Assembly: GCF_020711255.1 (NCBI RefSeq)
Contig: NZ_JAJFAW010000014.1
Span: forward strand, 62,001-126,000
Source of the DNA: Hymenobacter plasmatis
GTDB lineage: Bacteria > Bacteroidota > Bacteroidia > Cytophagales > Hymenobacteraceae
Length of the DNA: 64,000 nucleotides
Direction of reading: 5' to 3'
Shown here: piece by piece, positions 4,939 through 62,260 of the stretch
Layout: every line of letters starts with the position of its first letter
Position numbering within the stretch: position 1 is the stretch's first letter
The notes under the pieces: model-generated
What the model was told of the DNA's origin: nothing
The model's database searches: none
What the model saw: only the letters and a program-made list of their open reading frames with translations
Made by a program: the position numbers and the translations under genes

Positions 4939-5428
4939 TTTTTGGTGGCAAAGTACAAATACTGCTAGGTGCTATAGAATCGGCAATATAATTGTGCTAT
5001 CAACTCTTTATACGTTATATACTTTTGATTACAAGTACTTTACAAGAAAAAATAGGCGATTTTGATTCTTTTTAAAGACATTGATTTCGCATTCGAATGG
5101 CACGAGCATGGCTAATCGGGAGTTAGGCGGGCATTTCCCCGAAGCTGGTTTGTCAAGCTTGGGAAAGGCCCTGGGGAAGTAGCATCGGCTGAGATGCAAA
5201 ATGTGGCCCAGCTAAGAAAGTCGGCAAAGGCCACAAGCGAACTTCTCAAATGCCTGAGATAAGGGCGGCTATCAAGGCGCCGGCAAGCCAGCACAGTTGA
5301 GGCTAGTGCCTGCCACCAACAATTGAGCTGAAGGCTTCCTACTAAATATATACGAATAATGTGGGCATGATGAGGCTTTCGAGCCGTGGAAAGTAGTCGT
5401 GCAGAAGTAACCGCATAGTAAAAAGGCG

Positions 5429-5517
5429 GTCATGCTGAGCTTGTCGAAGCATCTCTACTGCTTCGTCCGAGCCATTCAACGAAGCGGGAGAGACGCTTCG
5501 GCTCCGCTCAGCATGAC
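5429..5517. repeat. Palindromic dispersed element, GTCATGCTGAGC family
   Basis: Starts GTCATGCTGAGC and ends GCTCAGCATGAC, with inner complementary stretches around GAAGCATCTC and GAGACGCTTCGG. Related elements are at 58222-58306 and 63619-63707, and an interrupted copy is in 41048-41287. It could fold into one long hairpin. REP/MITE-like; no transposase is nearby. Confidence 0.75.
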
Positions 5518-5665
5518 GTTCATTTGAATACGCTTACTTCTGCGTGGGTACTTACCAGTGCGATACCGGGTGAAACCAAGCAAATCCTTATCTGATAAAA
5601 ATCGGAAGGGGTATGCTTATTTTTCAAAAAAATGTCACTATGTTTATAAGAAAAACAACTATGCC

Positions 5666-5935
5666 ATGAGCGACTTCTTTCCATTTTATTCAAGTATACC
5701 GGAGAAGGACGGGCGGCGGCTATACCATACGCACCCCCGCTGCCGGATTGCGCAGCGCATTTCGATGGCCTACCGCGTGGCTGGCACCGGCGATGAGCGG
5801 CAGCAATGTCCATTCTGTTACCTGTTTGGTCAGTTTGAAATGAACAAGGACTTTCGGGGCCCGCTCCCGCCGGGTTCTTCGCGTGGGGCACCGCGGGGCC
5901 AGGAAACGGGGGCAACATCTGCCTCGCAGTCGTAG
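5666..5935 (+). CDS. Small Cys/His-rich hypothetical protein
   Basis: An 89-residue frame beginning MSDFFPFYSS. The longer in-frame start at 5558 adds a low-quality AT-rich leader, so the ATG at 5666 is preferred. It contains YHTHPRCRIA (His, His, Cys) followed about 25 residues later by CPFC, a spacing that could bind a metal such as zinc. No signal peptide or membrane segment is visible. I think similar short proteins with a His/Cys and CPxC pattern occur in Hymenobacter-like genomes, but this is from memory. The tail after residue ~65 is low complexity. It converges on the histidine kinase with a 46-bp gap. A competing antisense frame (5520-5945) shows no protein-like features. Function unknown. 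Confidence 0.5.
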   Translation: MSDFFPFYSSIPEKDGRRLYHTHPRCRIAQRISMAYRVAGTGDERQQCPFCYLFGQFEMNKDFRGPLPPGSSRGAPRGQETGATSASQS

Positions 5936-5981
5936 TAGTACCCACCCGGCGAGCCGGCGGCTGGTACCGCAGTTGGGACGG

Positions 5982-7988: not shown

Positions 7989-8618
7989 GACAGGAAAAGA
8001 AGTTCTATCTGAAAAGCAGAAGCTCTATCCGGGTGAAGAAGAACGAAACACGGATGGGCAGCCTGGGGCACTTTCCATCGTGCCGGGCCGAGGCATCAGT
8101 AGCTCAACAGTACTGTTTCCTGTAAGGAAGCTCTGCTTTTAGCTCAAAAACTTACAGCGGAGCGGTGCGCAGAACTCTGCTACTGTTCAGGTAATTGCCA
8201 TGGATAAGGAAATAAGATTGTCTAATATAGCGAGCGAAGCTCCTTGGTAATGCGCTGGCTTAGGATTATTTGCCCGGTAGGCCAACGGCCTGCGGCAGGA
8301 GCCTTAAGCTCAACCGCGGCCGCGGGTGTAGGAGGGGCTTTATACCAACTCCGCGTCGCACATCGCAAACGCTTTCGCCTTCCCGCTGCTGGCTGCAGTT
8401 GAGCTAAAGTCAGCTCAATAAGTACTGGTTGGCATTGCCAGTCAGGGTGTTGGTGTTGGTTTTGTGCCGTTGGTACGGTGCTGCTTGCGTGCCACGGCAG
8501 TGCCTTGCGGAGCGGACGCTGCCTTAAGCGGGCTGGCGGGTGTTTCTTTGCGGCCTTTCCGGGCTGTTCCCGCCGTTCTGTTGTTGGGAAGCTTTGCTCA
8601 CTTGTTCGCGTCCTTCCC
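7989..8618. other. Intergenic region with a cluster of TTGAGCT motifs
   Basis: No supported gene. TTGAGCT or its complement occurs at about 8101, 8140, 8308, 8399 and 8412, the densest cluster in the window. The gap lies between the divergent kinase and GNAT genes and should hold both promoters. A 136-codon antisense frame (8222-8632) and a 47-codon upstream extension of the GNAT frame look like GC-driven open frames. Confidence 0.6.
8399..8418. repeat. Inverted pair of TTGAGCT motifs
   Basis: TTGAGCT at 8399-8405 and AGCTCAA at 8412-8418 form a 7-bp inverted repeat with a 6-nt loop, made from two copies of the recurrent intergenic motif facing each other. Confidence 0.6.
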
Positions 8619-9797: not shown

Positions 9798-9829
9798 TGA
9801 AAATTGGGCTGAGATAGCAGAACAGCAAG

Positions 9830-9991
9830 CTCCCCTCCTTGGTAAGGAGGGGATGTTTTCGCGCAGCGAAAACGGGGGTGGTTGAATCGTTGAACGATTC
9901 CATGCCGAGTCGTTCTTGCATCGTTCAACGGCTCAACCACCCCCGTCCGAGCCGTTGGCTCGAACATCCCCTCCTTGGTAAGGAGGGGAGT
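9830..9991. repeat. Long inverted-repeat element, CTCCCCTCCTTGG family (copy 1)
   Basis: Outer arms of 28 bp at 9830-9857 and 9964-9991 match as inverted repeats with 3 mismatches. Each arm tip is itself an imperfect palindrome (CTCCCCTCCTT, GGT, AAGGAGGGGA). Inside each arm is a short hairpin (9855-9873, stem GTTTTCG; 9948-9962, stem CGAGCC), then GGGGGTGGTTG or its complement. It fills the gap between the convergent GNAT and tamL genes. A second copy is at 29228-29390. It may act as a two-way terminator. Confidence 0.85.
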
Positions 9992-17838: not shown

Positions 17839-20643
17839 ATGATACTACGCTTTTCTCTTCCCTACCGCACCGCATTTGGCCAGCGCCTGGCCGTGTGCGG
17901 CTCCCATCCCGATTTGGGCAATTGGCAGCTGGCCACCGCGGCCATCATGCTCTACGACGAAGCCACGGGCTGCTGGAGCTATGAGCTGACCGTGGGCGAT
18001 GCGGCAGCCGAACAAGTGCTTACCTATAAATATGCCTTGCTCGACGCCAACACCGGCAGCCAGACTTGGGAATTCGGTCCCAACCGCAGCATCGCCTACG
18101 ATGCTTCCCGCGCGCCGCGCTTGCAGCTGGCCGATTACTGGCGCTCCCCGTCCCAACCCGAAAATGAGCTGTTCACGGCTGCCTTCACCAAGGCCCTGTT
18201 TCGGCGGCCCGCCTCAACAACCAGCGCTGCGGCCCCAACCAACAATGGGAAAAAAGCCAAATCCGGCAAAGCCGTGACCGAAGCGCCGGTAGCTACCCCA
18301 GCGGCTACTTCCGTGGCCGCCCCCGGCGCTGGCCAAACCCTGTTTCGCCTGATGGCGCCGCGTGTGCCGCCACAGTACGGCCTGTGCATCCTCGGCTCCG
18401 ACCCGGCCCTGGGCGCCTGGGACAACACCAAAGGCCTCGTGCTGTCGGATAAGGATTTCCCGACCTGGGCCGGCACCATCACGCTGCAAAACCCCACCGA
18501 GGACTGCCAGTACAAATACGCCATCTGGGATGCGCAGGCCGGCCACGCCCTGGACATGGAGGGCGGCGAAAACCGTGTGATTCCCGCCACCACCAACCGC
18601 ACCGCGGCCCGGGTTTTCAATGACGAAGCTTACCGCTACCCGGATGCGTGGCGTGGTGCCGGGGTAGCCCTGCCCGTATTTGCCATGCGCAGCGAAAACG
18701 GCTTCGGCGTGGGCGAATTCGCCGACCTGAAGCTGCTCACCGATTGGGCCGTGCAAACCGGCCTGAAGCTGGTGCAGATTCTGCCCATCAACGACACCAC
18801 GGCCACCCACACATGGGTCGATTCCTACCCGTACGCCGCCATTTCGGTGTTTGCCCTGCATCCGCAGTTCATCCACCTCGAAGGCATCGCGACTCTCAAG
18901 GACAAGAAAGCCGCCAGCGAAATGGCCCAGCTCAAGCAGGAGCTGAACGCCAAAGACTTCGTGGACTACGAGCCGGTGATGAACGCCAAGTGGAAGTTTC
19001 TCAAGCTGCTCTACCAGCAGGAGAAAAAGACATTCCTGGCCAACCCCGACTACCGCGAGTTCCTGAGCAGCCAAGCCGATTGGCTGGTGCCCTACGCCGC
19101 CTTCTCGGCCCTGCGCGACCGGTTCGGTACCGCCGACTTCCAGCAGTGGCCCACCGAGTTCCGCACCCCGCAAAACTTAGCTCAACTCACTGCCGAAACC
19201 GCTTCTGACTACGACGAGTACGGCCTGTTCTTCTTCACGCAGTTCCATCTCGACAAGCAGCTGCGCGAGGCCGTGAACTACGCCCGCAGCCGCGGCGTGG
19301 TGCTGAAGGGCGACCTGCCCATCGGCATCTACCGCCACTCCGTAGACGCCTGGACCCAGCCCAAGCTCTACCACATGGACCGCCAGGCCGGCGCCCCGCC
19401 GGACGATTTCTCCACCACCGGCCAGAACTGGCGCTTCCCCACCTACAACTGGGAGCGCATGGCCCTGGACGGCTACAAGTGGTGGAAGCAGCGCATGGGC
19501 CACCTCGCCCGCTACTTCGATACCCTGCGCATCGACCACATTCTGGGCTTCTTCCGCATCTGGGAAATGCCCATTGAATCGGTGGAGGGCTTGTTGGGCC
19601 ATTTCTCGCCGGCCTTGCCGCTGCACCGCCATGAGATTCAGCGCCGCTTGGGTTGGTTTGACTACAGCCGCCTGTGCGAGCCGTACATCCGCTGGCACAT
19701 GCTTCAGGATATCTTCCAGGGCGAGGCCCAGTCGGTGTTCGATGAGTACATGTACGACGCCAGCTATGGCCGCATCCACCTGAAGGAGGCCGTGGACACC
19801 CAGCGTAAGATTGAGGCCTACATTGCCCAGAAGCTGGCCGTCGCGCCCGAGCACGCCGACTACTTTGCCTGGCTGCAGAAGGGCTTGTTCCAGCTGGTGA
19901 ATGAGGTGTTGTTTGTGCCCGCCGGCGATGACTTCTACCACCCACGCATCACCCTCAACAAGAGCTACTCGTTCCGCGAGCTCGACACCGACGAAGACCG
20001 CCGCCGCCTCTACGACGACATCTACGTCGACTTCTTCTTCCGCCGCCACGAAGAGTTCTGGCGCCAGCAGGGCCTCGTGAAGCTGCCGCCCGTGCGCTAC
20101 GCCACCGACATGCTCATCTGCGGCGAAGACCTCGGCATGGTGCCAGCCTCCGTGCCCGGCGTGATGAAGGAGCTTGGCATCCTGGGCCTGAACATCCAGC
20201 GCATGCCCTCCAACCCCGAAACCGAGTTCGGCCACCCCGACACCGCCGCTTACCTGAGCGTTGTCACGACCAGCAGCCACGACATGAGCACCATCCGCGG
20301 CTGGTGGGAAGAAGACCGGGTGCGTACCCAGCGCTTCTTCGAAACCATCTTGGGTCACTGGCGCGAAGTGGCGCCCTTCTACTGCGAGCCTTGGGTAGCG
20401 CGCGAAATTGTGGTGCAGCACCTGCACTCGCCCGCCATGTGGGCCATCTTCCCGCTGCAGGACCTGCTGGCCATGGACCGCAACCTGCGCCGCGCCAACC
20501 CGCACGACGAGCAAATCAACGTGCCCAGCAACCCCACCCACTTCTGGAAATACCGTCTGCACCTGCCCTTGGAGGAGCTGGTTGACGCCGTGGGCTTCAA
20601 CGAGCCGCTGCAGGCGCTGGTAACAGCCAGCGGCCGCAGCTGA
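17839..20643 (+). CDS. malQ: 4-alpha-glucanotransferase with two N-terminal CBM20 domains
   Basis: 934 residues from ATG 17839 (MILRFSLPYRT); an in-frame ATG at 17776 adds a poor leader. Residues ~1-105 and ~155-265 each look like a CBM20 starch-binding domain (GSHPDLGNW and GSDPALGAWD motifs), separated by an Ala/Thr/Lys-rich linker. From ~270 the protein is a GH77 amylomaltase: LRIDHILGFFRIWEMP carries the nucleophile Asp near 565, ICGEDLGMVP the acid/base Glu near 761, and SSHDMSTIRGWW the third carboxylate near 814. The reaction is transfer of alpha-1,4-glucan segments in maltodextrin or glycogen metabolism. No signal peptide, so cytoplasmic. This CBM-bearing type (plant DPE2-like) is known in bacteria. 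A terminator follows. Confidence 0.93.
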   Translation: MILRFSLPYRTAFGQRLAVCGSHPDLGNWQLATAAIMLYDEATGCWSYELTVGDAAAEQVLTYKYALLDANTGSQTWEFGPNRSIAYDASRAPRLQLADYWRSPSQPENELFTAAFTKALFRRPASTTSAAAPTNNGKKAKSGKAVTEAPVATPAATSVAAPGAGQTLFRLMAPRVPPQYGLCILGSDPALGAWDNTKGLVLSDKDFPTWAGTITLQNPTEDCQYKYAIWDAQAGHALDMEGGENRVIPATTNRTAARVFNDEAYRYPDAWRGAGVALPVFAMRSENGFGVGEFADLKLLTDWAVQTGLKLVQILPINDTTATHTWVDSYPYAAISVFALHPQFIHLEGIATLKDKKAASEMAQLKQELNAKDFVDYEPVMNAKWKFLKLLYQQEKKTFLANPDYREFLSSQADWLVPYAAFSALRDRFGTADFQQWPTEFRTPQNLAQLTAETASDYDEYGLFFFTQFHLDKQLREAVNYARSRGVVLKGDLPIGIYRHSVDAWTQPKLYHMDRQAGAPPDDFSTTGQNWRFPTYNWERMALDGYKWWKQRMGHLARYFDTLRIDHILGFFRIWEMPIESVEGLLGHFSPALPLHRHEIQRRLGWFDYSRLCEPYIRWHMLQDIFQGEAQSVFDEYMYDASYGRIHLKEAVDTQRKIEAYIAQKLAVAPEHADYFAWLQKGLFQLVNEVLFVPAGDDFYHPRITLNKSYSFRELDTDEDRRRLYDDIYVDFFFRRHEEFWRQQGLVKLPPVRYATDMLICGEDLGMVPASVPGVMKELGILGLNIQRMPSNPETEFGHPDTAAYLSVVTTSSHDMSTIRGWWEEDRVRTQRFFETILGHWREVAPFYCEPWVAREIVVQHLHSPAMWAIFPLQDLLAMDRNLRRANPHDEQINVPSNPTHFWKYRLHLPLEELVDAVGFNEPLQALVTASGRS

Positions 20644-20676
20644 TTAGCTCAATATTCCTTTAAGCTTACCTATATG

Positions 20677-20989: not shown

Positions 20990-23900
20990 ATGAAATTTTC
21001 TTTACCCTTTTGGTACACCTTCCTTGCTCTGCTACCCTTAGGAATTCGGGCGCAAGTGCCGTTACTTGAATTGAACGAAAGCACTCCCAAGGTTGGCACA
21101 GCTGATTTGCGTAAGCGTGAAGTAGCGTTCAAGCAGTTAAGTACGGCTGCGGCCGCGAGGGCTACGGCGGCTTGTACTAACACCACGACGCTTAATTTCT
21201 CTCAGCGGCAGCTGAATGAAGATTGGAAGAACCATTCCCCGGTCAACGCCGGTGCGGCGAATACTAACACGACAATTACGACGGCTGGCTCTTACATAGA
21301 GCCAGTAGGCGGAGCCGAAACCTTTTTGTACGTAGGTAACAATGGCGGCACGCTAAATGGCCAGCCGTTGTTTTGGGGCGCCGATTATACCAGCTCGCAA
21401 AATGCGACCACGCAGATTACATACTCTTTCAACCGTCCGGTCAACAACTTCTCGCTCCACATTCAGGACATCGATTTGGGAGCAGGAGCATCGGGATGGG
21501 TTGATGTTGTAACCCTCGCTGCTTCCCAGGCCAATGGCGTTGTCCTGAACTTATCATCGGCTTCCGATGCCACGTTCACCAATGACGCAGCTTATACATC
21601 TATAAGCGGCAACAGAATCACTGGCATCAGGAATAATGTGGCTAACTCCGAACTCGCCTCGGTTACCATCACTTTTAATAAGCCCATTACCTCCTTCCAG
21701 ATTACCTATCAAAACACCGTCAATCTGACAAATCCCGGGGGCCAGTTCATCGGAATTGATTACATGAGCTGGTGTACGCAAGCCAACGTGGCAACCACGC
21801 TTACGGGCCCCGCCCGTGCCGTGGTAGGAACGCAGGTGGTTTACACTGCCACCACTACGGCATCCGGCGACTATGATGCCTCCGGCGTTCAGCCGAAGGT
21901 GCAGCTCACTCCTGGCCTGAACACGCAGAGCCCTGTATTTCCAACGGGCAGCAGCTACAACAACGCCACTGGTTTGCTCACCCTGCAAGCTGTTCCGCTA
22001 CTGGCCGTTGGCACCAGCACCACATCCGTCATCAAGTTCAATATGCCCGCCTCTACGGTAACCGGTTCGGCCAGCAGCAGTATTGATACCGACGACGCTG
22101 ACCCGTTGGATAACAACGGTTCCCTTGCGGCCGCCAACGTAACCACTACCACCAATGCGACTCCGACGGCGGCAGCCAAGACGGCCAGCGTTACTGCCAA
22201 CACAACGGTATACTCTGCACTGCCAGCCATGACGGGCACCGATCCGAACAACGACGTGCTCACCTATACGATTGTTGGGTCGAGCATTGCCAGCATCAAC
22301 TTCGGAACCGTCTATTACACCCGCGGTGGGGTGCGGACGGTCCTTGCCGGCACCAGCGATGTGACGCTGACGGCAGCCGAGGCGGCGACCCTGGAGTTTA
22401 AGAATACCAACGGCGCAGCAAATTCCAGCCGTGCCTTCAGCTACTTTGTGTCAGACCCTTACGGCGGCAGCAGCCCTGCGGTAAACTATACCATTGCCAT
22501 CGGCAACCAGCCAGCCGTGTACAGCTCGCCAAACGTTGCTTATGTAGATGGCGCGAATTATCAAAACGAAGTTATTGCTACAGTAACCGACCCGGATGGC
22601 GCTATTGCTACCGCTTCTATAACTGGTGGTACACTGCCAGCTAACTTGCTGTTTAATGCTGCTACGGGTACTTTTTCGCGGGATAACAAAAAAGATATTC
22701 CTGCTGGAATTTACACCTTTACCGTGACCACAACCGGTACCGCAAGTGGTACTACAACCGGGATTAGCGTCACTATCAAGATTATTTCTTCCGATACAGA
22801 AGCCGCCTATTCGACTGGCAACACGTTCAACCGCGACGCCCTCACCAACGGCTCGACGCTGGCTACGGTTACCGACGCCGATGGTCCGCTGACTGGCGCC
22901 ACGCTCACAGGTTCTGCAGCCAGGGGAATGTTATTCAACACGCAAACCGGGCAATTTTCCGTCGGTTCGGACACGGCGCCGTTTGTGGGTACCTATACCT
23001 ACACGGTAAATACGACCGATATAGCAGGCGGCCTCACCACGACGAACGTTACAATCGCCATCCGCGACGATGTGGAAGCTGCTTACACCGCCGTTCAATC
23101 CTATAACCGGGATGCCTTAGCAAACAACACGACGCTGGCCACCGTGACCGACGCCGATGGCGTTGTATCATCGGCTACGTTAGCCGGAGGGGTGTTGCCA
23201 ACGGGCACTGCTCTTAATCCCACCACGGGCGCCTTCAGTGTAAGCGACGCCACGGCTCTTGCCAACGGCAGGTATTCCTTCACCGTGAATACCGTGGACG
23301 TTACGGGTGGCCGAACCACTTCCCTGATAGGAGTCAATTTGTTCGAAACCGAGGCAATATATACTTCTGCCCCGTCCAAGACAGGGGCGTATGCCAATGG
23401 GTATTCGCTGGCTACCGTGACCGATGCGGATGGGAGCATTACCAATGCGGTACTGAGTGGGTCGAGCCTGCCGGCCGGGGTTGGGCTGAATGCTAGCACA
23501 GGTCAGTTCACCGTTACCGACCGTACGCTGTTGCGGTCCGGCACGTACACTGTACAAACCAAAACAACCGACGCTACTGGGGGCATAACCTTGCAAGGCG
23601 TGACAATCAATATTGGGGCGTATCCGCTCCCAGTTGAGCTGACTGCCTTCACGGCTGCCGTAAAAAACCAAGATGCCCAACTTGCCTGGCGCACCGCCTC
23701 CGAAAAGAACAACGACCACTTCGACGTGGAGCGCAGCCTCAACGGCACGGACTTCGCTAAGATTGGCCAGGTGAAGGGCCAAGGCACGAGCTCGGCGGCA
23801 ACGGACTACACGCTGACGGATGCAGGCATCGGCGCCAAGGCCACGGGCGTGGTGTACTACCGCCTGCGGCAGGTAGACGCCGATGGCACCGAGAACTTCT

Positions 23901-24336: not shown

Positions 24337-25263
24337 ATGCAATTTCAATACGACGTTCTGATTATTGGGGCGGGCAGCGCTGGCCTGTCGGCGGCCCTTA
24401 CGCTGGGGCGTTGCCTGCGCCGGGTGCTGCTGGCCGATGGCGGCCCCCCGCGCAACGAGGCCTCGCCCGGCGTGCACGGCTTTCTCACGCGCGACGGCAT
24501 TCCTCCGGCCGAACTGCTGCGGCTGGGGCAGGAGCAGCTGCGGCAGTACACCACGGTGGAAATGCAGTGCCTGGAAATTAACGAGGTAATCCCGCTGGAA
24601 AAGGGCTTTCGGGCCTCCGGCTGTCTAACCACCGACGATACGCCCGTGAGCATCACGGCCCGGCGGGTGCTGCTGGCCACGGGCGTATTGGACGTGTTGC
24701 CGCCATTGCCGGGGTTCCGGGAGCTGTGGGGGCGGGGGGTGCTGCACTGCCCGTACTGCCACGGGTGGGAGGTGCGCAACCAGCCCCTGGCGGTGTACGG
24801 GCAGGGCCGCATTGTGACGGGCCTGGCGCTGCTGGTGAGCCGCTGGAGCCACGACGTGGTGGTGGTGACCAACGGGCCGGGACACCTGACGCACAATGCC
24901 CGGCGCCGGCTGCGGCGGCAGCACATCAAAATCCGCGAAGAACACATCACGCGCCTCATCGGCTCGGCCACCGACGACCTGGAATGCATTGAGTTTGCCG
25001 ATGGCAGCCAGCTCGAGCGCAAGGCCCTGTTTCTGCACGCCTCCCAGTACCAGCGCAGTACGCTGGCCGAAAAGCTCGGGGCGCGCCATACCAGCAAAGG
25101 CGCCGTGTGGGTCAATTCGGGCATGCAAACCTCGGTGCCGGGCCTGTACGCAGCCGGCGACACCACCCCTGGCGCCCAGCAGGCCCTGCTGGCCGCGGCG
25201 GCCGGCAGCCGGGCCGCCATCGTCATCAACGAAGCCCTTACTCGCGAGGAATGCCCGCGTTGA
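24337..25263 (+). CDS. Thioredoxin-reductase-like FAD/NAD(P) oxidoreductase
   Basis: 308 residues from ATG 24337 (MQFQYDVLIIGAGSAG); a start at 24292 would add 15 unlikely residues. The Rossmann motif GAGSAGLSAA lies at ~10-19, the redox-type motif HCPYCHGWE at ~140-148, a second nucleotide-binding stretch (VYGQGRIVTGLAL) at ~154-166, and the terminal FAD motif LYAAGDTTPG at ~271-280. This matches the CPYCHG subgroup of thioredoxin-reductase-like flavoproteins, which often act on disulfides other than thioredoxin. The second Gly motif is atypical, so NADPH use is uncertain. The stop codon TGA lies inside a GTTGAGCTAA motif. It converges on the patatin gene with a 30-bp gap. Confidence 0.85.
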   Translation: MQFQYDVLIIGAGSAGLSAALTLGRCLRRVLLADGGPPRNEASPGVHGFLTRDGIPPAELLRLGQEQLRQYTTVEMQCLEINEVIPLEKGFRASGCLTTDDTPVSITARRVLLATGVLDVLPPLPGFRELWGRGVLHCPYCHGWEVRNQPLAVYGQGRIVTGLALLVSRWSHDVVVVTNGPGHLTHNARRRLRRQHIKIREEHITRLIGSATDDLECIEFADGSQLERKALFLHASQYQRSTLAEKLGARHTSKGAVWVNSGMQTSVPGLYAAGDTTPGAQQALLAAAAGSRAAIVINEALTREECPR

Positions 25264-25293
25264 GCTAAATAAGGGCCGCCAAAGCCCTCAGGC

Positions 25294-28109: not shown

Positions 28110-28294
28110 GGGAGGAAACCGGACAATTTGCGGAGCTGGAGTGGATGGTTCAAAACAGACAAAGCAGGACTCGGCCATCCTTGTTATAGTTTCGGCCGTG
28201 GGTTCTCTGCTGCCGATGCCAAACGGTAGCCGGGCCCTGCAAGTTGGGCCGGAATTAGCTCAACCGCTCGTTTTTAGTTTTCAGCAGTACCCCT

Positions 28295-29227: not shown

Positions 29228-29390
29228 CTCCCCTCCTTGGTAAGAAGGGGACGCTCAACTGCTAAGTTGAGCTGGGGTGGTTGCGGGCGTTGAACGACAC
29301 CCGAACGATGCTGGTGCGAAACGTTCAACGCCCGCAACCACCCCCGTTTCAGCTGGCGCTGAAACATCCCCTCCTTGGTAAGGAGGGGAG
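29228..29390. repeat. Long inverted-repeat element, CTCCCCTCCTTGG family (copy 2)
   Basis: Same design as 9830-9991: palindromic arm tips, a short internal hairpin in each arm (29253-29272, stem GCTCAACT; 29346-29365, stem GTTTCAGC), then GGGGTGGTTGCGGGCGTT and its complement. It lies between the convergent Kir and phospholipase C-like genes. The hairpin sequences differ from copy 1 while pairing is kept. Confidence 0.85.
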
Positions 29391-30390: not shown

Positions 30391-30453
30391 AAGGTACGGG
30401 AACCGTCTTTTATCCGAAGCACAATTGAGCTAAAACCCCTTGCCCCATAAATA

Positions 30454-30486: not shown

Positions 30487-30509
30487 TTGATAGTTATGGG
30501 CAAGTTGAG

Positions 30510-31097
30510 CTAATCTACCACCCGCACGCGGACGGCGGTAGACACCAGCTGCCGGCCGTCTTCCAGGGTAATGAGGAAGTAGAAGGGAAGCTGGTTGGGG
30601 TTTTGGGCGTTGAAGGCAGCGGTTGGCGCCACCACGGCCGGCTGGCCGGCGGCGGCGGCGCCAACGCGGGTGCGGTAGGTGGTGTACTGGCTCAGGCTCG
30701 AAGTAAACGTAATCTGGTTGGTGCCATTGCCGGGGATGGGCACTAGTTTTTTGCCCGTTACGTCGTAGTTGTAAGACAAGGACTCCGCCCCGGTCATGTT
30801 GGCCAGGCCGGCCGTGCCGGTGGTGATGCGGCTGATTTCTTTAATCTTGCCCTTGTCGGATGGGATTTGCAGGATGATGGTGAAGGGCCCCGTGTTTCCG
30901 GCGGCGTCCTTCTTGCTCACCGAAGCCGTGACGATGGGGAACCGCTCGAAAAACTCCTGGTTGGGCACCGTGATGGGGATTTCGGCTACGCTGTCTTGCA
31001 GGGGCGAGAGGCTTTTGTCGTCATACTCCTTTTTGCAGGAGAACACTCCCACCGAAAGCAGGCCGAGCAGGATGAATTGGGCGAGTTGCTTTTTCAT
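30510..31097 (-). CDS. SusC/D-operon lipoprotein of unknown function
   Basis: 195 residues with a lipoprotein signal peptide (FILLGLLSVGVFSCKK, lipobox GVFSC). The rest is beta-rich, with FTIILQIPSDKGKIKEISRI resembling the small beta-sandwich surface lipoproteins that accompany SusCD pairs. It is the last gene of the susC-susD unit (39 bp after susD), suggesting a role in binding the same ligand. No enzyme motif is seen. Its stop codon TAG lies inside a TTAGCTCAA motif. Confidence 0.8.
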   Translation of the reverse strand: MKKQLAQFILLGLLSVGVFSCKKEYDDKSLSPLQDSVAEIPITVPNQEFFERFPIVTASVSKKDAAGNTGPFTIILQIPSDKGKIKEISRITTGTAGLANMTGAESLSYNYDVTGKKLVPIPGNGTNQITFTSSLSQYTTYRTRVGAAAAGQPAVVAPTAAFNAQNPNQLPFYFLITLEDGRQLVSTAVRVRVVD

Positions 31098-35828: not shown

Positions 35829-36136
35829 AATGGCTGACTTTTATTGAGGAGGGAATCTGCAACAAATTACAAATCAGCGCGCCAAATAATATAGTATTGA
35901 CAAGACATTTTTGAATTATTAGCAGTAGTTGAGCTAAAAAAGTCGTCAGTTGTGCTGACCTACTGTTAACGGGTTGCTGGAAATCAGCTTCTTGATTTCA
36001 TGGAGAAAAATAAAGATTCTAATATTATTTAAGCGGCTGCAATGAGGAAAATTCAGGTCTACTAAAAGTCTGCTCAAGGTCTCAACCCACGGCAACCGCT
36101 ATCCAGCTACTAAAGAGGCGCAGGGTCCCGTAAAAG
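35829..36136. other. Intergenic region upstream of susC
   Basis: AT-rich leader expected to hold the susC promoter. A weak TAnnTTTG-like match (GTAATTTG on the minus strand) lies about 40 bp before the start, with one mismatch. A TTGAGCT motif is near 35927. No gene is seen. Confidence 0.4.
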
Positions 36137-39801: not shown

Positions 39802-41007
39802 ATGTCGCACTACCACCGCCTCGGCCAGATTCCGCGCAAGCGCCACACCCAGTTTCGCCAGCCCGATGGCACCCTGTATTCGGAGCAATTGGTGGGCACG
39901 CTGGGCTTCCACGGCGTGTCGTCGCTACTGTACCACGTGCACCCGCCCACCCAGATTAAGCATGTAGGCGAGCCACGGTCCTACGCCCCCAAGCTGCTGA
40001 AGGACCGGCCGCTGCAGCCCGAGCACCTGCGCACGCTGGCTCAAACCAGCACCGGGGGCGACTACCTCGCCGCTCGCCAAACCCTGCTCGGCAACGCCGA
40101 CGTGACCATGAGCATCTGCAACCCCACCGACAAGCGGATGGATTATTTCTACAAGAACGCCCAGGCCGATGAGGTGATTTTCGTGCACGAAGGCCGCGGC
40201 GAACTCTGGAGCCAGATGGGCAAAGTTGCCTTCGAGCCCGGCGACTACGTGGTGGTGCCGCGCACGGTCATTCACCAGCTCCACTTCGAAGAAGGCCCCG
40301 TCCGGCTGATGATTATTGAGTCGTTCAGCCCTGTGGAAACCGTACGGCGCTATCGCAACCACTTCGGCCAGCTGCTGGAGCACTCGCCGTATTGCGAGCG
40401 CGACATGCGCCCACCCACCGAGCTGATTCTCGACGACTTGCCCGAGGGCGACTACGTGGTGCAGGTCAAGAAAGAGGGCATGCTGCACCAGCTCACTTAC
40501 GCGCATTCGCCCTTCGATGTGGTGGGCTGGGATGGGTATTTCTACCCCTACGCCTTCAGCATCCACGATTTTGAGCCCATCACCGGGCGCCTGCACCAGC
40601 CGCCACCCGTGCACCAAACCTTCGAGGGCCGCAACTACGTCATCTGCTCGTTTGTGCCGCGTCTTTTCGACTACCACCCGCTCAGCATTCCGGCGCCCTA
40701 TAACCACTCTAACGTCGATTCCGACGAGGTGCTGTACTACGTGGCCGGCAATTTCATGTCGCGCAAGGGCGTGGACCTGGCCTCCTTCACCTGGCACCCC
40801 ACGGGCCTGCCGCACGGCCCGCACCCCGGCACCGTGGAGGCGAGCATCGGCAAGAAAGAAACCCACGAGTTGGCCGTTATGCTCGATACCTTCCGCCCGC
40901 TCTACCTCACCGAAGCGGCGCTGCCTTATGTAGATGCCCGCTATCCGATGAGCTGGAATCCCGGCTTCGTGCCCGACCCGCCCAAATCGGCGGATATGAT
41001 GGATTGA
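39802..41007 (+). CDS. hmgA: Homogentisate 1,2-dioxygenase
   Basis: 401 residues. Cupin-type features include FVHEGRGELWSQMGKVAFEP, VPRTVIHQLHFE, SDEVLYYVAGNFMSRKG (likely Fe-binding Glu) and GLPHGPHPGTVEA (likely Fe-binding His). These match homogentisate dioxygenase, which opens the aromatic ring of homogentisate to maleylacetoacetate in tyrosine breakdown. Cytoplasmic. No other gene of the pathway (hpd, maiA, fahA) is near, so they are unlinked or lie outside the window. The stop codon TGA lies inside ATTGAGCTGA. Confidence 0.9.
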   Translation: MSHYHRLGQIPRKRHTQFRQPDGTLYSEQLVGTLGFHGVSSLLYHVHPPTQIKHVGEPRSYAPKLLKDRPLQPEHLRTLAQTSTGGDYLAARQTLLGNADVTMSICNPTDKRMDYFYKNAQADEVIFVHEGRGELWSQMGKVAFEPGDYVVVPRTVIHQLHFEEGPVRLMIIESFSPVETVRRYRNHFGQLLEHSPYCERDMRPPTELILDDLPEGDYVVQVKKEGMLHQLTYAHSPFDVVGWDGYFYPYAFSIHDFEPITGRLHQPPPVHQTFEGRNYVICSFVPRLFDYHPLSIPAPYNHSNVDSDEVLYYVAGNFMSRKGVDLASFTWHPTGLPHGPHPGTVEASIGKKETHELAVMLDTFRPLYLTEAALPYVDARYPMSWNPGFVPDPPKSADMMD

Positions 41008-41047
41008 GCTGAACTGTGGGCTAAGCGCTAGCTAAGCCAAAACAGAA

Positions 41048-41287
41048 CGTCATGCTGAGCTTGTCGAAGCATCTCTACTGCTTCGTTGAGCCGCACCGGG
41101 GAACCTCACCCCTGGCCCCTCTCCAAAAGAGAGGGGAGCCTGACGGTAACCAGTCAACAAAAAGACCCGACTCAATATTGAGTCGGGTCTTTTAATTAGG
41201 AATTGAGCTGATTCTTGTGCCGTGGCTCCCCTCTCTTTTGGAGAGGGGCCGGGGGTGAGGTTCTCACGCGAGATGCTTCGCTCAGCC
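41048..41287. repeat. Nested inverted repeats between convergent genes
   Basis: Three layers. Outer: a GTCATGCTGAGC-family element split into halves (about 41048-41093 and 41263-41287). Middle: a 39-bp inverted repeat, 41102-41140 and 41224-41262, identical but for one base, starting AACCTCACCCCTGGCCCCTC, whose tips are themselves palindromic (CCCCTCTC, GAGAGGGG). Inner: a terminator at 41159-41193. It looks as though one element inserted into another around an existing terminator. Confidence 0.85.
41159..41193. terminator. Bidirectional terminator between hmgA and the tricorn-like gene
   Basis: AAAAGACCCGACTCAATATT and its complement form a near-perfect hairpin flanked by an A-run on the left and a T-run on the right, so it can work for both converging genes. 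Confidence 0.9.
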
Positions 41288-46134: not shown

Positions 46135-46611
46135 TAACTTATTATTAAAGGAAGATGGAATAAAAACGGCACCAAAACTACAATAACATCGGCATCTATC
46201 ACGATTCTGCTTAGCGTGCCAAATTACTTTCGGGCAGCCAAGCACCGTGCCAACCCAAGACGCAGAAATTATGTGCAGGTTTCTTGCGGATGTAAATAAA
46301 TGATAAATAGAGAGAAAGATGATAAGGGTTGGCGCATTTCATCTAGTGCTTGACAGAATAATCAGCCTAACCTATTAGCTCAACTTAAGAAACGCTGGTT
46401 GTAATATTCCACCATTTACACCTTATCTGTTCCGTTGCTATTTGGGCGTGGGCCAGGGCTGCGAACATAACGAATAGAAGTGGCCGTGCTGCGCAGCGTG
46501 GTTTGCGAATAGTCGGCAGAAAGCCACGCAAGTGCTGGAAAGCAAAAACGCCACCCCGACGCCCGTAAATTGAGCTGAAAGGGTGACGCTGCATTGCTGA
46601 TGAATACAGAC
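46135..46611. other. Intergenic region
   Basis: Contains two TTGAGCT-type motifs (near 46376 and 46568). The half near 46135 should carry the promoter of the exported protein. A minus-strand frame (46385-46768) overlaps the end of the HMG-CoA reductase gene and has no supporting feature. No terminator hairpin for the reductase gene was found. Confidence 0.5.
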
Positions 46612-49560: not shown

Positions 49561-50343
49561 ATGGCTTACGCACTCGTTACCGGCGCTTCGCGCGGCATTG
49601 GCCGCGCCCTTTCCCTTTTGCTGGCCCAGCGCGGCTACGACCTGCTGCTGGTGGCGCGCTCCGAAGCCCAATTGCAGGACCTGGCCCGGGAAATAGGGGA
49701 GAAGCACCAGCGTCAGGCCCGCGTACTGGCCCTGGACCTTGCCGCTCCCGGCGCCGCCGAGACTGTAGCCACCTGGGCCACCCAGCAAACCGACCAGCTG
49801 GCCATCATGGCCAATAACGCCGGCTACGGCCTGTGGGGCCGCTTCGAGCAGCTCAGCTTGGCCGAGCAGCAAAACATGCTTCAGCTCAACATGCATTTGC
49901 CGGTGGCGCTCACGCACGCGCTGCTGCCGGCGCTGCACCGGGTCCCCAAGGCTTACGTGCTGAATGTGGCCAGCACCGCGGCCTACCAGGCCGTGCCGTC
50001 GCTCTCGCTCTACGCGGCCAGCAAGGCGTTTTTGCTGAGCTTCAGCCGGGGCCTGCGCTACGAGCTCAAGAGCAGCAACATCTCCGTGACCTGCCTGTGC
50101 CCCGGCGCTACCACCACCAGCTTTGCTGACCGCGCTGGTATGGGCGCCGAGCTGCAAGCCACCGCCAACAAAGTATCGATGACGGCCGAGGCCGTGGCCG
50201 AAGCCGCCGTGGTGGGCCTGCTGGCCGGCGAAGCCGAAATCATCCCCGGCATGCTCAACAAGGTATCGGCGGGCCTCACCAGCGTGGTGCCCAAGGGCAT
50301 TGTGGAGAAAATCGCCGCCGGGATTTACGAGAAGTATTTGTAG
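49561..50343 (+). CDS. Short-chain dehydrogenase/reductase (SDR)
   Basis: 260 residues. Classical SDR motifs: TGASRGIG (7-14, cofactor), NNAGYG (~90), catalytic Ser in NVASTAAY (~140) and YAASK (~153-157). The cofactor is likely NADP(H), judged by the Arg in the first motif. Resembles the DltE/YqjQ-like ~260-residue SDRs. Substrate unknown. The C-terminal (LNKVSAGLTSVVPKGIVEKI) helix is typical of this subgroup. The end overlaps the convergent PAP2 gene by 19 bp. Confidence 0.92.
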   Translation: MAYALVTGASRGIGRALSLLLAQRGYDLLLVARSEAQLQDLAREIGEKHQRQARVLALDLAAPGAAETVATWATQQTDQLAIMANNAGYGLWGRFEQLSLAEQQNMLQLNMHLPVALTHALLPALHRVPKAYVLNVASTAAYQAVPSLSLYAASKAFLLSFSRGLRYELKSSNISVTCLCPGATTTSFADRAGMGAELQATANKVSMTAEAVAEAAVVGLLAGEAEIIPGMLNKVSAGLTSVVPKGIVEKIAAGIYEKYL

Positions 50344-58221: not shown

Positions 58222-58306
58222 TGTCATGCAGAGCGCAGCGAAGCATCTTATCGCCGCTGAACAAATCGTTGAGCCGTGAGAAGATGCTTCCTGCGTCAGC
58301 ATGACA
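58222..58306. repeat. Palindromic element, GTCATGCTGAGC family
   Basis: Starts TGTCATGCAGAGCGCAGCGA and ends GCGTCAGCATGACA, with inner complementary GAAGCATCTT/AAGATGCTTC. A decayed second copy seems to flank it (CCTGCAGAGCGTAGCATC near 58178 and GGTGCTTCGCTGCGCGC near 58321). It lies between two convergent genes. Confidence 0.75.
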
Positions 58307-58887: not shown

Positions 58888-60116
58888 AACAGCAAGGTAG
58901 GGGCCGTATGCGCAAGTGCCGCCTGCTCATCGGCACCTTGCCGGCGGCGCAGGGGTAGGGCGGCGCTCACGTGGGCCTGGGCGGCGAGCAGGGCGTCGGC
59001 GGTGGGCTGGTGCAGCACGCGGGCGGGGCCGGGCTGGCTCAAGTCGGCATCCCACAGGCCGGATTGGTGCCACTGCTCGAGGTGGTCCCAGTCGGGCCGG
59101 TCGATGATGGGGTAGAGGCAGGTGCCCCACAGCGGCAGGCCCTCCTGGCGCACGGCGGCGCACTCCCGAGCTATCATCTGCAGCCACTGCGGCCGGTCGA
59201 CGCCAGGGTGGCTGGTTTCTGTGAGGGCGAAGGGGCGCTTGTAGCGCTTGTAGGCATCGCGCAGCAAGTCGCGCAGGGGCCGCCAGCGCGGGTCATGCAC
59301 GGCATCGTTCCAGCCCAATTTGTTAGGCGTTCCGTTCTGCCACTGGTTGTCGTAGTAGTAGTTAAAGCCCACAATGTCGAGCAGGTAGGGCTGGCCGCCC
59401 AGCTCGGGGCACATACGGCCGCTTAGGATGTCGGTGGCCTGAAACTGGTTATTGTTGGCCTCGCGGGCCTTGCGGCGCTCGTGCGAAGACGCAAACCGCG
59501 GCGGCACGATGTTCACCAGCGGCTCGGTGGTAAGAATGCGGATGCTGGGGTCGGCCTCGCGCAGGGCGTACACACCCTCGATGTAGGCGCGCATCAGGCC
59601 GTACTTCACCTCCCAGCCCTGGTGGTTGCAGTAGGGCGAGGTACCGCGGGCGTCGCCCCCCAGCCAGGAAATAAAGCTCACCTCGTTGATGGGCGTGACG
59701 ATGAGCACATCATCGGGCCGCTGCGAGCGGTAGAAATCCACAAAAGCGCGGCAGAGGGCGGCAAAGCGCCGGGCAAACAGCGGGTGGAGCGGCGTGAGGT
59801 CGTCGGGATAGCCGAAGTGGCACAGGTCCCAGACCTGCTGGATGCCGTGGCGCTGGCCAGCCTCCAGCATCAGCTTCACCGTGCTAAAATCGTAGTGGTA
59901 GGGTGTTTTCTCGATGTGGGCCCAGCGGATGCCCTCGCGCACGGTGCGTACCTGGAACGGGGCCAGCGCCGCATAATCTTCGTCGATGAGCTGCAAATGG
60001 CCGGTGAGGGGCAGGAAATCGACGCGGTGGCCGAAGCAGTTGAGCTGGTCGGTGCACTCGTAGCCGCCCCACCAGAAGGAGCGAAACGGGCTGGTTTCGG
60101 GAAAAGTAATTGCCAT
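58884..60116 (-). CDS. Clan-A (GH1-like) glycosidase-related protein
   Basis: 410 residues from ATG 60116 (MAITFPETSPFRSFWWGGYE); the frame extends 70 codons further but is low quality. A TIM-barrel of clan A is suggested by an acid/base Glu in TPINEVSF (near 144), a nucleophile Glu in ALTETSHPG (near 299), GFNYYYDNQWQ and LWGTCLYPIIDRPDW. It resembles GH1 beta-glucosidases, but is shorter and lacks the standard GH1 strings, so the true family is unsure. No signal peptide, hence cytoplasmic. Coupled to ogt by an ATGA overlap. Confidence 0.75.
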   Translation of the reverse strand: MAITFPETSPFRSFWWGGYECTDQLNCFGHRVDFLPLTGHLQLIDEDYAALAPFQVRTVREGIRWAHIEKTPYHYDFSTVKLMLEAGQRHGIQQVWDLCHFGYPDDLTPLHPLFARRFAALCRAFVDFYRSQRPDDVLIVTPINEVSFISWLGGDARGTSPYCNHQGWEVKYGLMRAYIEGVYALREADPSIRILTTEPLVNIVPPRFASSHERRKAREANNNQFQATDILSGRMCPELGGQPYLLDIVGFNYYYDNQWQNGTPNKLGWNDAVHDPRWRPLRDLLRDAYKRYKRPFALTETSHPGVDRPQWLQMIARECAAVRQEGLPLWGTCLYPIIDRPDWDHLEQWHQSGLWDADLSQPGPARVLHQPTADALLAAQAHVSAALPLRRRQGADEQAALAHTAPTLLL

Positions 60117-60210
60117 AGAAAAGGAGCTGCGTGGAACATGCGCGTGCCGGCGGCAACCCGAAAGTTGCGGCCGGCACGCGCCCTCCTTTACCCCAAATTG
60201 GCCTCTGGGG

Positions 60211-61161
60211 TTAACGCGGAGCTTCACTATTGAGGCTTTCCGGGCGATTAGCCAGGTTTTTGGCCTCGATAAAAATGCGCTGCACCTCCGGGTGCTCGGC
60301 CCGAATGGCGTCCTGCAGCATCTCAACGGCGCTGGCTACCTGGCCGGAGCTCAGGTCGTCGGCAAATTCCACGTCGAGGGCCAGCACCACGTCGTTGGGG
60401 CCCAGGTACATGGTGAGGGGAGAGCGAATCTCGCACACCTGAGGCTGGGCGCGGGCAATGCGCTCCAGGTTGGCCAGGGTCTCGGCATCGACGCCCGTGC
60501 CCACCAGCAGGGCCTTGGTGCGGGCCACCAAAAACACGGCCACGAGCATCAGCAGCAGCCCAATGGCAACGGACGCGGCCCCGTCGAAGTACGGGTTGTT
60601 GAGCAAATGGCCCAGGAACACCCCAACCAAAGCCAGCAGCAGGCCCACCAGGGCCGCCAGATTTTCCATCACGGAGGCGAAAACCGCCGGGTCTTTGCTC
60701 GTGCGCAGCATCTTCACGAAGCCCACGTTCGCATCGGACTGCGCCAGCAGCGCCTTCACCGACAAATACATGGCCACGCCTTCGAAGAGCAGCGAAACGC
60801 CCAGCACGATGTAGTTCCACTTGGCGTCTTCGAGCGGCACCGGGTCTTGGATGTGCTTGATGCCCTCGTAGAACGACATGCCGCCGCCGATGGCAAAGAT
60901 GAGCACCGCCACAATCAAGCCCCAGAAATACAGCTCCTTGCTGTGCCCAAACGGGTGCTCGGCATCGGGCGGGCGCTGGCTGCGGTTTACGCCGTAGAGC
61001 AGCAGGCCGCTGTTGCCGGTATCTACCAGCGAGTGAATGCCCTCCGAAAGCATGGCCGATGAGCCCGTGAAATAGGCCGCCACAAACTTGCTGACGGCAA
61101 TGGCGACGTTGGCAGCGATGCCGCCGTAGAGGGAGATTTTAGAAGCGTTAGCGGAAGCCAT
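60211..61161 (-). CDS. Cation diffusion facilitator transporter (paralogue 2)
   Basis: 316 residues with about six membrane helices (~10-200) and a C-terminal metal-binding domain (~210-300). The TM2 metal site HSLVD (~42-46) is intact. In the TM5 region it has MENLAALVG, where the neighbour has LEDLAALVG, so one acidic residue is replaced by Asn. Otherwise it is strongly similar to the gene just upstream, from which it is separated by 29 bp. A proton-coupled exporter of Zn2+, Mn2+ or Fe2+ by family knowledge; the specificity may differ from its partner. Confidence 0.93.
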   Translation of the reverse strand: MASANASKISLYGGIAANVAIAVSKFVAAYFTGSSAMLSEGIHSLVDTGNSGLLLYGVNRSQRPPDAEHPFGHSKELYFWGLIVAVLIFAIGGGMSFYEGIKHIQDPVPLEDAKWNYIVLGVSLLFEGVAMYLSVKALLAQSDANVGFVKMLRTSKDPAVFASVMENLAALVGLLLALVGVFLGHLLNNPYFDGAASVAIGLLLMLVAVFLVARTKALLVGTGVDAETLANLERIARAQPQVCEIRSPLTMYLGPNDVVLALDVEFADDLSSGQVASAVEMLQDAIRAEHPEVQRIFIEAKNLANRPESLNSEAPR

Positions 61162-61190
61162 AAAGCAGGTTCGTAGATAATTGGGCGGGG

Positions 61191-62138
61191 TTAATCCAGG
61201 GTTGCGCTGCCCACACGCTCCTTCTCGCCAATGGCTTTGGCTTCGATAAAAATGCGTTTGAACTCCGGGTGCTCGGCCCGGATGGCGTTTTGCAGGGCAT
61301 GCACGGCGTGCTCCACTTCATCGGCCGTCAGGCGGTTTTCAAATTCGATGTCCAGGGCCAGGATAACATCGGCTGGCCCAAGGTACATGGTGAGCGGCAC
61401 CCGCATGTGCTGCACCGCGGGCTGGGCGTGCACAATGCGCTCGAGGTCCAGCAGGGTTTCGTCGTCGGCCCCGATGCCCACCAGCAGGGCCTTGGTTTTG
61501 TAAATGAGGAACATGGCCACGCCCACCAGCAGCGTGCCAATACCTATGGAAGCTACGCCATCGAAGTAGGGATTGCCCAGCAGGTGACCCAGGTACACAC
61601 CGGCCAGGGCGATGACCAGCCCAACCAAAGCAGCCAAGTCTTCGAGGAGAATGGCAAACACCGCCGGGTCTTTGCTGCGGCGCAGGGTTTGCCAGAAGCC
61701 TTCGTCGCCGCGGTCGGCATTGAAGGCTTTGAAAGCCAGAAAGCAGGAAATGCCCTCGAACACCAGCGAGATGCCCAGCACCCAGTAGTTCCAGGTAGGG
61801 TCGGATAGGGGCGCCGGGTGCTTGAGGTGCTCGATACCTTCGTAGAACGACATGCCGCCGCCCACCGAGAATACCAGAACGGCCACAATAAGCGCCCAGA
61901 AATACAGCTCTTTGCTGCGCCCGAACGGATGGCGCCGGTCGGGCGCCTTGCCGCTCTGGTGCACCCCAAGCAGGATGAGAAACCCGTTGCCACTGTCCAC
62001 CAGCGAGTGAATGCCCTCGGAGAGCATAGCCGACGAGCCCGTGAAGTACGCCGCCACAAACTTGCTGACGGCAATGGCAATATTGGCCCCGATGGCTCCG
62101 TAAATGGCAAATTTGGAGGAGGACGCGGCTGAGCTCAT
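61191..62138 (-). CDS. Cation diffusion facilitator transporter (paralogue 1)
   Basis: 315 residues; same layout as the next gene. SKFVAAYFTGSSAMLSEGIH precedes the TM2 motif HSLVD, with LLEDLAALVG in the TM5 region. The cytoplasmic domain ends with EHPEFKRIFIEAKAIG. It is the first gene of a probable minus-strand unit: two transporters, then the glycosidase and ogt. The pair looks like a tandem duplication. The metal is not predictable. The divergent gap to the permease holds GTTGAGCTAA near 62198. Confidence 0.94.
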   Translation of the reverse strand: MSSAASSSKFAIYGAIGANIAIAVSKFVAAYFTGSSAMLSEGIHSLVDSGNGFLILLGVHQSGKAPDRRHPFGRSKELYFWALIVAVLVFSVGGGMSFYEGIEHLKHPAPLSDPTWNYWVLGISLVFEGISCFLAFKAFNADRGDEGFWQTLRRSKDPAVFAILLEDLAALVGLVIALAGVYLGHLLGNPYFDGVASIGIGTLLVGVAMFLIYKTKALLVGIGADDETLLDLERIVHAQPAVQHMRVPLTMYLGPADVILALDIEFENRLTADEVEHAVHALQNAIRAEHPEFKRIFIEAKAIGEKERVGSATLD

Positions 62139-62260
62139 GCCTAGCCTTACGCAGCAAGCGCGGCCGGTGTTGGCCGAAACCAGGCGGCCGGGGCGCGGTT
62201 GAGCTAACCACAGCCGCCATTGCGCCTTGGCAATGACAAGCCCGGCACTACTTTCGCCCC

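Follow-up and report, generated by a model that had tools for sequence, protein, structure and literature searches.

Strict copies of the word in the window

The window analysed here is a 64-kb stretch of the 5.13-Mb genome of a Hymenobacter species (G000), and it holds 17 copies of the ten-base word RTTGAGCTRA, which we call the strict form. They lie on both strands, between genes, within genes and across stop codons, and are listed below with details of their state in the sister species G068 (~93% identical) and the next relative, G033.

5322–5331, plus strand: intergenic
8398–8407, plus strand: intergenic; forms the left arm of an inverted pair (8398–8419); kept in G068 with one R-to-R change
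8410–8419, minus strand: intergenic; right arm of the same pair; same in G068 despite 10 differences in 40 flanking bases
19177–19186, minus strand: coding; no difference in G068 and four in G033
20644–20653, minus strand: intergenic; adjoins the stop of gene 17839–20643; broken by two changes in G068
23633–23642, plus strand: coding
25259–25268, plus strand: overlaps a stop codon (gene end 25263)
28255–28264, minus strand: intergenic
30424–30433, plus strand: intergenic
30504–30513, plus strand: overlaps the stop codon of minus-strand gene 30510–31097
35928–35937, plus strand: intergenic
41003–41012, plus strand: overlaps the stop codon of gene 39802–41007
41202–41211, plus strand: intergenic; class retained in G068, with 11 flank differences
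46375–46384, minus strand: intergenic; broken in G068
46569–46578, plus strand: intergenic; class retained in G068
49881–49890, minus strand: coding
62198–62207, plus strand: intergenic; same in G068

Shuffled versions of the window contained a mean of 0.22 strict copies and at most 2. The core of the word, TTGAGCT, occurs 52 times, compared with a mean of 6.65 and a maximum of 13 in 100 dinucleotide shuffles. According to our own hexamer-based gene finder, whose gene starts are approximate, 21 of these lie between genes, 3 at gene edges and 28 within genes; the 24 intergenic and edge copies compare with 2.8 expected when the 9,786 intergenic bases are modelled as an order-2 Markov chain. A sequence-only reading of this DNA had listed 24 core copies in the gaps, and all are present, on one strand or the other, within 4 bases of the listed positions; its count of about 15 in coding DNA was too low. 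The same reading drew attention to copies that overlap stop codons and to a hairpin formed by two copies at 8399–8418. Both exist. The strict form overlaps the stop in only 6 of 383 G000 genes and 4 of 446 G068 genes, and close pairs of the looser word described below (within 120 bp) are inverted about as often as direct, with 14 inverted and 11 direct in one genome (n = 25) and 14 of each in the other. The tail of the motif, CTAA or CTGA, can itself supply a stop codon. A search of the window against Rfam gave no match.

Form and copy number across the genome

Genome-wide, 738 strict copies compare with 19 of the reversed pattern, so the recurrence of the ten-base motif proposed from the window is borne out. 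Its strictness is not: what recurs throughout the genome is a looser word, approximately RTTGRGCTRR (the loose form), with 2429 copies against 78 of the reversed control. G068 contains 545 strict and 1922 loose copies, and six other Hymenobacter genomes hold 274–352 loose copies against 72–105 of the reversed control. The word is A/G-degenerate at four positions and is not self-complementary; outside the core there is a weak A before and a weak A/T after. No second strongly conserved block lies within 40 bp on either side (isolated values ≤0.09 bits), and a promoter element was rejected on this ground.

The word had been described as recurring in intergenic DNA. Enrichment in the gaps is real, with the strict form 9–10 times denser between genes than within them, but the word is not confined to gaps. 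In 526 kb of G000 we counted 28 strict and 144 loose coding copies against 2.8 and 20 after synonymous codon shuffling, and the corresponding values in G068 were 19 against 2.1 and 111 against 18.2. Synonymous shuffles thus give 6–10 times fewer copies, and an artefact of codon usage was rejected for this reason; constraint on coding sequence explains, at least in part, why gaps and stop codons had stood out. Among coding 7-mers in G000 the two strongest are TTGGGCT and TTGAGCT, and overlapping motif words top the G068 list; no motif 7-mer is among the 14 top coding 7-mers of a pool of four other species. Within genes the word favours neither strand relative to the gene (of the 144 loose G000 copies, 55 are same-sense in frame 0 and 47 opposite in frame 2), and the spacing of copies is indistinguishable from exponential.

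Confinement to two sister species and shortage in unshared DNA

Among 120 Hymenobacter genomes the excess is found in two, G000 and G068, and in G033 the motif stands at background. A draw of 395 Bacteroidota genomes revealed no excess in the other 394. Scans for counterpart words covered four of the 118 other Hymenobacter genomes: the best joint gene-and-gap 7-mer score, size-matched, was 27.1 in G000 and 19.0 in G068, and 7.0, 7.2, 12.3 and 6.0 in G033, G008, G010 and G069, respectively. In the 8-mer scan, TGAGCTTG from G010 scored 9.7, near the G068 best of 10.0. It was rejected because it has no longer consensus, is partly MITE-derived and fell in rank when 220 kb of G010 were used (18 against 6.2 coding, 10 against 1.7 intergenic); GCCGGGC was rejected for an excess of only ~2-fold. 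We take neither as a counterpart, and a weaker counterpart in other Hymenobacter genomes is possible.

Sites are kept between G000 and G068 only a little more often than permuted controls: 21 of 35 strict intergenic sites are retained (controls, 24 of 45) and 39 of 68 loose ones (controls, 74 of 157). Individual copies are intact amid diverged flanks. Of the 29 loose intergenic sites missing from G068, substitutions alone account for 20 and alignment gaps for 9, with no repeated unit by eye. A mobile-element footprint was ruled out, the flanks being unrelated; one 11-bp length difference between short direct repeats looks like slippage. A test for gain relative to G033 (12 of 13 against 228 of 330) was not significant (p = 0.12).

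Copies are scarcer in DNA that the sister species does not share. We counted DNA as unshared if it had no alignment of at least 1 kb at 80% identity with the syntenic region of G068, so that the class takes in diverged genes and DNA possibly located elsewhere in G068; contig C3 lies outside this comparison. Loose coding copies number 9 in 55.0 kb of unshared DNA against 103 in 293 kb of shared DNA (p = 0.012), and loose intergenic copies 10 in 15.2 kb against 68 in 51.4 kb (p = 0.02). Strict coding copies are likewise fewer in unshared DNA (p = 0.027), and strict intergenic copies show no significant shortage there (6 against 35, p = 0.14). A 21-kb glycan-utilisation locus holds 1 copy against 9.9 expected.

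A putative uptake-type word, its rivals and known systems

ComEC is present in all 12 Hymenobacter genomes tested. The type IV pilin N-terminus (PF07963), a 27-position model that can miss diverged pilins, has no match in any of the 12, and hence there is no sign of a ComP-like receptor. We found no description of competence in this genus in the literature searched. G033 and G008 carry the same genes beside comEC, and this shared neighbourhood therefore offers no receptor candidate. Of the 19 genes called in 20 kb there, 15 are matched in the corresponding piece of G033 or G008. Four matched only G068 there; two of these occur elsewhere in 11 and 12 of the 12 genomes, and the last two encode an ABM-domain protein and a weak cupin protein. 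On these counts we set aside the idea of a clade-specific gene next to comEC, the ABM-domain and cupin genes being possible exceptions. A DUF1343 gene (PF07075), without which Riemerella is not competent, was rejected as a discriminator because all 12 genomes carry it.

As the best of the readings considered, we tentatively take RTTGRGCTRR to be a recently evolved, pilus-independent self-DNA word of the uptake type, amplified by molecular drive, and regard this as quite possible. On this view the word would serve DNA recognition in either orientation throughout the genome. It probably arose in the shared ancestry of G000 and G068 after the separation from the G033 lineage, its copies since multiplying through many independent changes. 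The likeliest driver would be an uptake-type bias, in which word-bearing DNA is taken in or recombined more readily, so that copies build up where constraint permits, in intergenic DNA and at synonymous sites, as with the DNA uptake sequences (DUS) of Neisseria and the uptake signal sequences (USS) of Pasteurellaceae. Because ComEC is present and type IV pilins were not detected, recognition of the word would fall to another protein of the surface or periplasm, as in the competence system described for Riemerella. Uptake, receptor and drive are the parts of this account that we infer. A further-reaching version, conceivable but more doubtful, is that a self-DNA uptake word was born de novo in the Bacteroidota, in a bacterium lacking type IV pilins, and rose from background to ~2,400 copies along the branch that led to the two sisters, in which case a non-pilus class of sequence-specific uptake would exist and drive would be visible near its start. 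In favour of the uptake reading stand the copy number, the coding excess, the strand symmetry and near-random spacing, the shortage in unshared DNA, the copies intact in diverged flanks, the inverted copies around some terminators, ComEC and the preference of R. columbina for its own DNA. Against it we count the missing pilin, the absence of described competence in the genus, the weak conservation, the non-significant results for strict intergenic sites in unshared DNA and for gain, and the lack of a candidate beside comEC, and several of its features are also those of HIP1-type words.

In a HIP1-like account, which we consider somewhat unlikely, a lineage-specific methyltransferase acting on part of the word, helped by a bias in mismatch repair or in some other repair pathway, would create and protect copies with no role in uptake. 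HIP1 provides the precedent, as a high-frequency genomic word that individual lineages have lost or replaced and for which methylation-dependent biased repair has been proposed (PMC4390886). One-base variants at the TTG of our core occupy at most 4 intergenic sites each, as if near-misses were converted or rejected; however, HIPs are palindromic, whereas RTTGRGCTRR is non-palindromic and A/G-degenerate at four places. Rather less probable is a site for an abundant, clade-specific nucleoid-associated or chromosome-organising protein. Genome-wide, orientation-independent and near-randomly spaced copies, some retained in diverged flanks, would suit such a protein, but it does not predict the shortage in unshared DNA, and some two thousand sites forced into synonymous gene positions would be unusual for proteins of this type. 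Chi and KOPS words are strand-polarised along replichores; high copy number and preference for shared DNA would fit a Chi-like recombination hotspot or a KOPS-like segregation word, but G068 shows no replichore strand bias (163 of 328 copies on the plus strand; best two-arc split 58.5%, permutation p = 0.11), and we think this quite improbable.

The sequence-only reading had proposed a protein-binding or terminator-associated signal. A DNA signal recognised by a protein is still likely, but the word is very unlikely to be a transcription terminator, a mark of RNA 3' ends or a regulator-binding element. Such an element could account for the higher density between genes, for the strict form being richest in G000 convergent gaps (1.16 per kb, against 0.40 in tandem and 0.62 in divergent gaps), for the inverted pairs that surround some terminators and for the lean of the strict form against gene direction in tandem gaps (30 of 42, two genomes together with shared sites counted twice, p = 0.008; loose, 50 of 87). 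It does not account for the lack of a fixed sense, the symmetric coding copies and their 6–10-fold excess, nor for the Rfam result; most copies have no terminator hairpin beside them, and the convergent preference is nearly gone for G068 strict sites (0.40 against 0.33 per kb). Remnants of a mobile repeat (REP/MITE) are barely conceivable as a general source. A palindromic MITE-like repeat has expanded in the same two species, with a few word copies in its loop and more intergenic copies than expected within 120 bp of it (G000, 17 of 108, 8.4 expected; G068, 12 of 98, 4.5 expected), but most copies lie far from it, flank similarity ends by ~13 bp and the G068 losses are mostly substitutions, so that this origin is refuted for most copies.

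If the uptake reading is true, the word is new for the phylum Bacteroidota. The established examples of sequence-specific uptake words come from Pasteurellaceae and Neisseriaceae (PMC7811141). How such a word originates is probably hard to study there because the words are shared widely within each family. Here the word is found in two sisters and stands at background in the next relative, which supplies a recent beginning together with an outgroup and two replicates. Should it have no part in uptake, there is still a process that has put about two thousand copies of a single ten-base word into a genome, synonymous sites of genes included.

The DUS of Neisseriaceae are a close parallel: a word on the scale of ten bases, about a thousand copies or more on both strands, within genes and between them, inverted pairs at some terminators, fewer copies in acquired DNA and a lineage-specific form. 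DUS 10-mers number 943 to 3236 per Neisseria genome (PMC3630211), are rare in acquired DNA and are conserved at 97% identity against ~85% (PMC2397512), more strongly than the Hymenobacter word. The latter belongs to another phylum and to two species only, with no type IV pilins found, four degenerate positions and inverted pairs no commoner than direct ones. Like the USS of Pasteurellaceae it is a genome-wide word favouring shared DNA, but the word differs, no pilin was found and its core has only the weak flanking preferences. With cyanobacterial HIP1 and other iterated palindromes it shares genome-wide iteration and lineage-specific gain and loss, but those words are palindromic and tied to methyltransferases. 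R. columbina, also of the Bacteroidota, differs in having no defined motif (PMC7965970); the words reported as k-mers for Riemerella are A-rich and of low complexity, and the authors draw no conclusion from them. It prefers its own DNA, as that study reports, and this preference implies that within the same phylum some mark of self is read.

A degenerate word in genes and between them

All 24 positions at which the sequence-only reading had placed TTGAGCT are present in the window, which holds 17 copies of RTTGAGCTRA against 0.22 in shuffled sequence. That reading had named a genome-wide count without excess as its refutation, and the count does not refute it: the whole Hymenobacter plasmatis genome (G000; 5.13 Mb, 72 contigs) carries 738 copies (355 forward and 383 reverse), whereas the reversed pattern occurs 19 times. 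In 464 kb, the excess was kept when the fifth base changed from A to G (RTTGGGCTRA; 21 intergenic sites against 1.15 expected, 24 coding against 3.3) or the last A became G (18 against 1.0 and 27 against 3.7). One-base changes within TTG or GC of the core gave at most 4 intergenic sites each, though one of them, RTGGAGCTRA, has 10 coding sites against 2.1 expected. Clear information in a logo from 166 intergenic TTGRGCT sites is confined to the stretch from 2 bases before the core to 4 after it. We define RTTGAGCTRA as the strict form and RTTGRGCTRR as the loose form.

The motif had been described as intergenic, which holds in part. In 526 kb of G000 it is denser between genes, with 56 intergenic and 28 coding strict sites (62 and 6.4 per 100 kb) and 108 intergenic and 144 coding loose sites (120 and 33 per 100 kb), but coding copies also lie far above expectation. 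After 30 rounds of shuffling synonymous codons inside each gene, coding sites averaged 2.8 for the strict form (maximum 6) and 20 for the loose form (maximum 27); in 580 kb of the sister species G068, observed and shuffled counts were 19 and 2.1 (strict) and 111 and 18.2 (loose). Among coding 7-mers ranked against such shuffles, TTGGGCT is first and TTGAGCT second in G000, TGAGCTG, GTTGAGC and TTGAGCT top the G068 list, and none of these words appears among the 14 listed for four other species pooled. Because coding copies exceed synonymous shuffles, synonymous choice writes the motif into genes too, and coding constraint can suffice to account for its greater density between them.

Some inverted pairs flank bidirectional terminators (C5 16695/16737 and C1 116344/116388, both outside the window), and in tandem gaps 30 of 42 strict sites are oriented against gene direction (p 0.008; G000 and G068 together, shared sites counted twice), as are 50 of 87 loose sites, unevenly by genome (23/50 and 27/37). 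Coding sites are about equal on either gene strand: of 144 loose ones in G000, the two largest classes are same-sense frame 0 (55) and opposite frame 2 (47). We consider a terminator or regulator site unlikely. Site pairs within 120 bp are over-abundant (25 against 14.1 expected in G000, 28 against 14.3 in G068), with no preference for inverted over direct orientation (14/25 and 14/28 inverted), and spacing does not depart from exponential (KS p 0.22 and 0.32). The G068 chromosome is a single contig; an 880-kb sample of it has 163 plus and 165 minus loose sites (n=328), and no replichore polarity was detected, the best two-arc split reaching only 58.5% (permutation p 0.11).

Confinement to two sister species

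Among 120 Hymenobacter genomes, G000 holds 738 strict sites, G068 545 and the remaining 118 between 14 and 98; a wider draw of 395 Bacteroidota genomes, with G000 among them and G068 not, gives 0-84 for the other 394. Loose counts are 2429 in G000 and 1922 in G068, about 7-fold above those of six relatives (G033 312, G008 290, G091 288, G007 352, G010 274, G069 284), which are themselves 3-4 times the reversed-pattern control (72-105 across all eight genomes). By TamL, G068 is the genome nearest to G000 (97%; syntenic DNA mostly about 93% identical) and G033 the second nearest (81%), with the motif at background. The 20 kb around comEC hold 14 loose sites in G000, 13 in G068, 1 in G033 and 2 in G008. 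A joint, size-matched 7-mer scan of genes and gaps returned TTGAGCT or an overlapping word as best in G000 (score 27.1) and G068 (19.0); top scores elsewhere were 7.0 (G033), 7.2 (G008), 12.3 (G010) and 6.0 (G069). Two leads for a counterpart word in G010 did not develop into one when more G010 DNA was scanned.

A gain along the lineage leading to G000 and G068 would explain this most simply. In the direct test, of G000 coding sites kept in G068 but missing in G033, the count is 12 of 13 against 228 of 330 for controls; this agrees in direction with gain and is not significant (p 0.12). Sites in syntenic G068 DNA are kept slightly more often than permuted control words: 21/35 against 24/45 (strict intergenic), 39/68 against 74/157 (loose intergenic), 15/21 against 71/128 (strict coding) and 79/103 against 739/1071 (loose coding). 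Some cases stand out, among them two sites that are intact in G068 despite changes at 18 of 40 (C1 73998) and 16 of 40 (C2 22983) flank positions. By eye, the 29 loose intergenic sites lost in G068 went by substitutions alone in 20 cases and with gaps in 9. Gain and loss of copies are quick.

G000 stretches of at least 1 kb that do not align to the syntenic G068 region hold fewer sites than shared DNA: 9 loose coding sites in 55.0 kb against 103 in 293 kb (p 0.012), 10 loose intergenic in 15.2 kb against 68 in 51.4 kb (p 0.020), 0 strict coding against 21 (p 0.027) and 6 strict intergenic against 35 (p 0.14). One 21-kb locus for glycan utilisation, with glycoside hydrolases, SusD and a TonB-dependent receptor, was picked post hoc and has 1 loose site against 9.9 expected (P 0.0006). 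Such a locus at L001:289-19568, almost motif-free, is unaligned to the syntenic G068 stretch and may sit elsewhere in G068.

Other repeats and words

Two further intergenic repeats occur in the window.

5429-5517, 41049-41279, 58240-58290 and 63621-63705: MITE/REP-like palindromic repeat (GTCATGCTGAG ... GAAGCATCT and its inverse)
9830-9990 and 29228-29390: inverted repeat with CTCCCCTCCTT arms

Copies of GAAGCATCT are intergenic in 67/67 cases in G000 (526 kb) and 19/19 in G068 (180 kb), and the repeat is rarer in four other Hymenobacter (0-5 per ~120 kb each). Its loop sometimes contains a loose motif copy, and the two, both expanding in G000 and G068, may have a common cause. The CTCCCCTCCTT-armed repeat numbers 6 in G000 (526 kb), 3 in G068 (180 kb) and 0 in the four other samples. 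G068 also has intergenic AATGAGG-type short tandem repeats (L078-L086; C1 1680001-1860000), with 5 copies of AATGAGGAATGAGGAA in these 180 kb and 0 in samples of G000 and the four others. In G068 coding DNA, 6-mers that contain GATC, CAGATC among them, are about 24-fold depleted (10 against 240 by synonymous shuffles; L078-L086, L115-L134). They are also depleted in the four other species pooled (34 against 209) and are absent among the 14 6-mers listed for G000; the two sister species may differ in how they avoid restriction.

Comparison with uptake and other word systems

We tentatively favor an uptake-type word as the likeliest reading. Its distribution resembles that of DUS/USS; it differs from them in weak conservation, in having no excess of inverted pairs and in the absence of a detected pilin. 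ComEC (PF03772) was found in 12/12 Hymenobacter tested, G000 and G068 among them, with neighbour genes common to G033 and G008, and a type IV pilin N-terminus (PF07963) in 0/12, the same search matching 8/14 control genomes. Next after an uptake-type word comes a HIP1-like word or one bound by a DNA-binding protein: HIP1 words, as described in excerpts of PMC4390886, are likewise high-frequency and lineage-specific, but they are palindromic and tied to methyltransferases.

Within the phylum, according to excerpts of PMC8459023, competence in R. anatipestifer requires ComEC, DprA, ComF and RecA, together with four proteins that lack well-characterised counterparts; the DNA channel proposed by the authors is a barrel in the outer membrane. 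We found no earlier description of the motif in Hymenobacter or Bacteroidetes in open-licence literature; the nearest report is the self-DNA preference of R. columbina (PMC7965970, excerpts), whose listed k-mers are A-rich and were left open by its authors. There, transformation was lowered by an equal amount of the species' own competing DNA, and R. anatipestifer or E. coli DNA added in the same quantity did not lower it.
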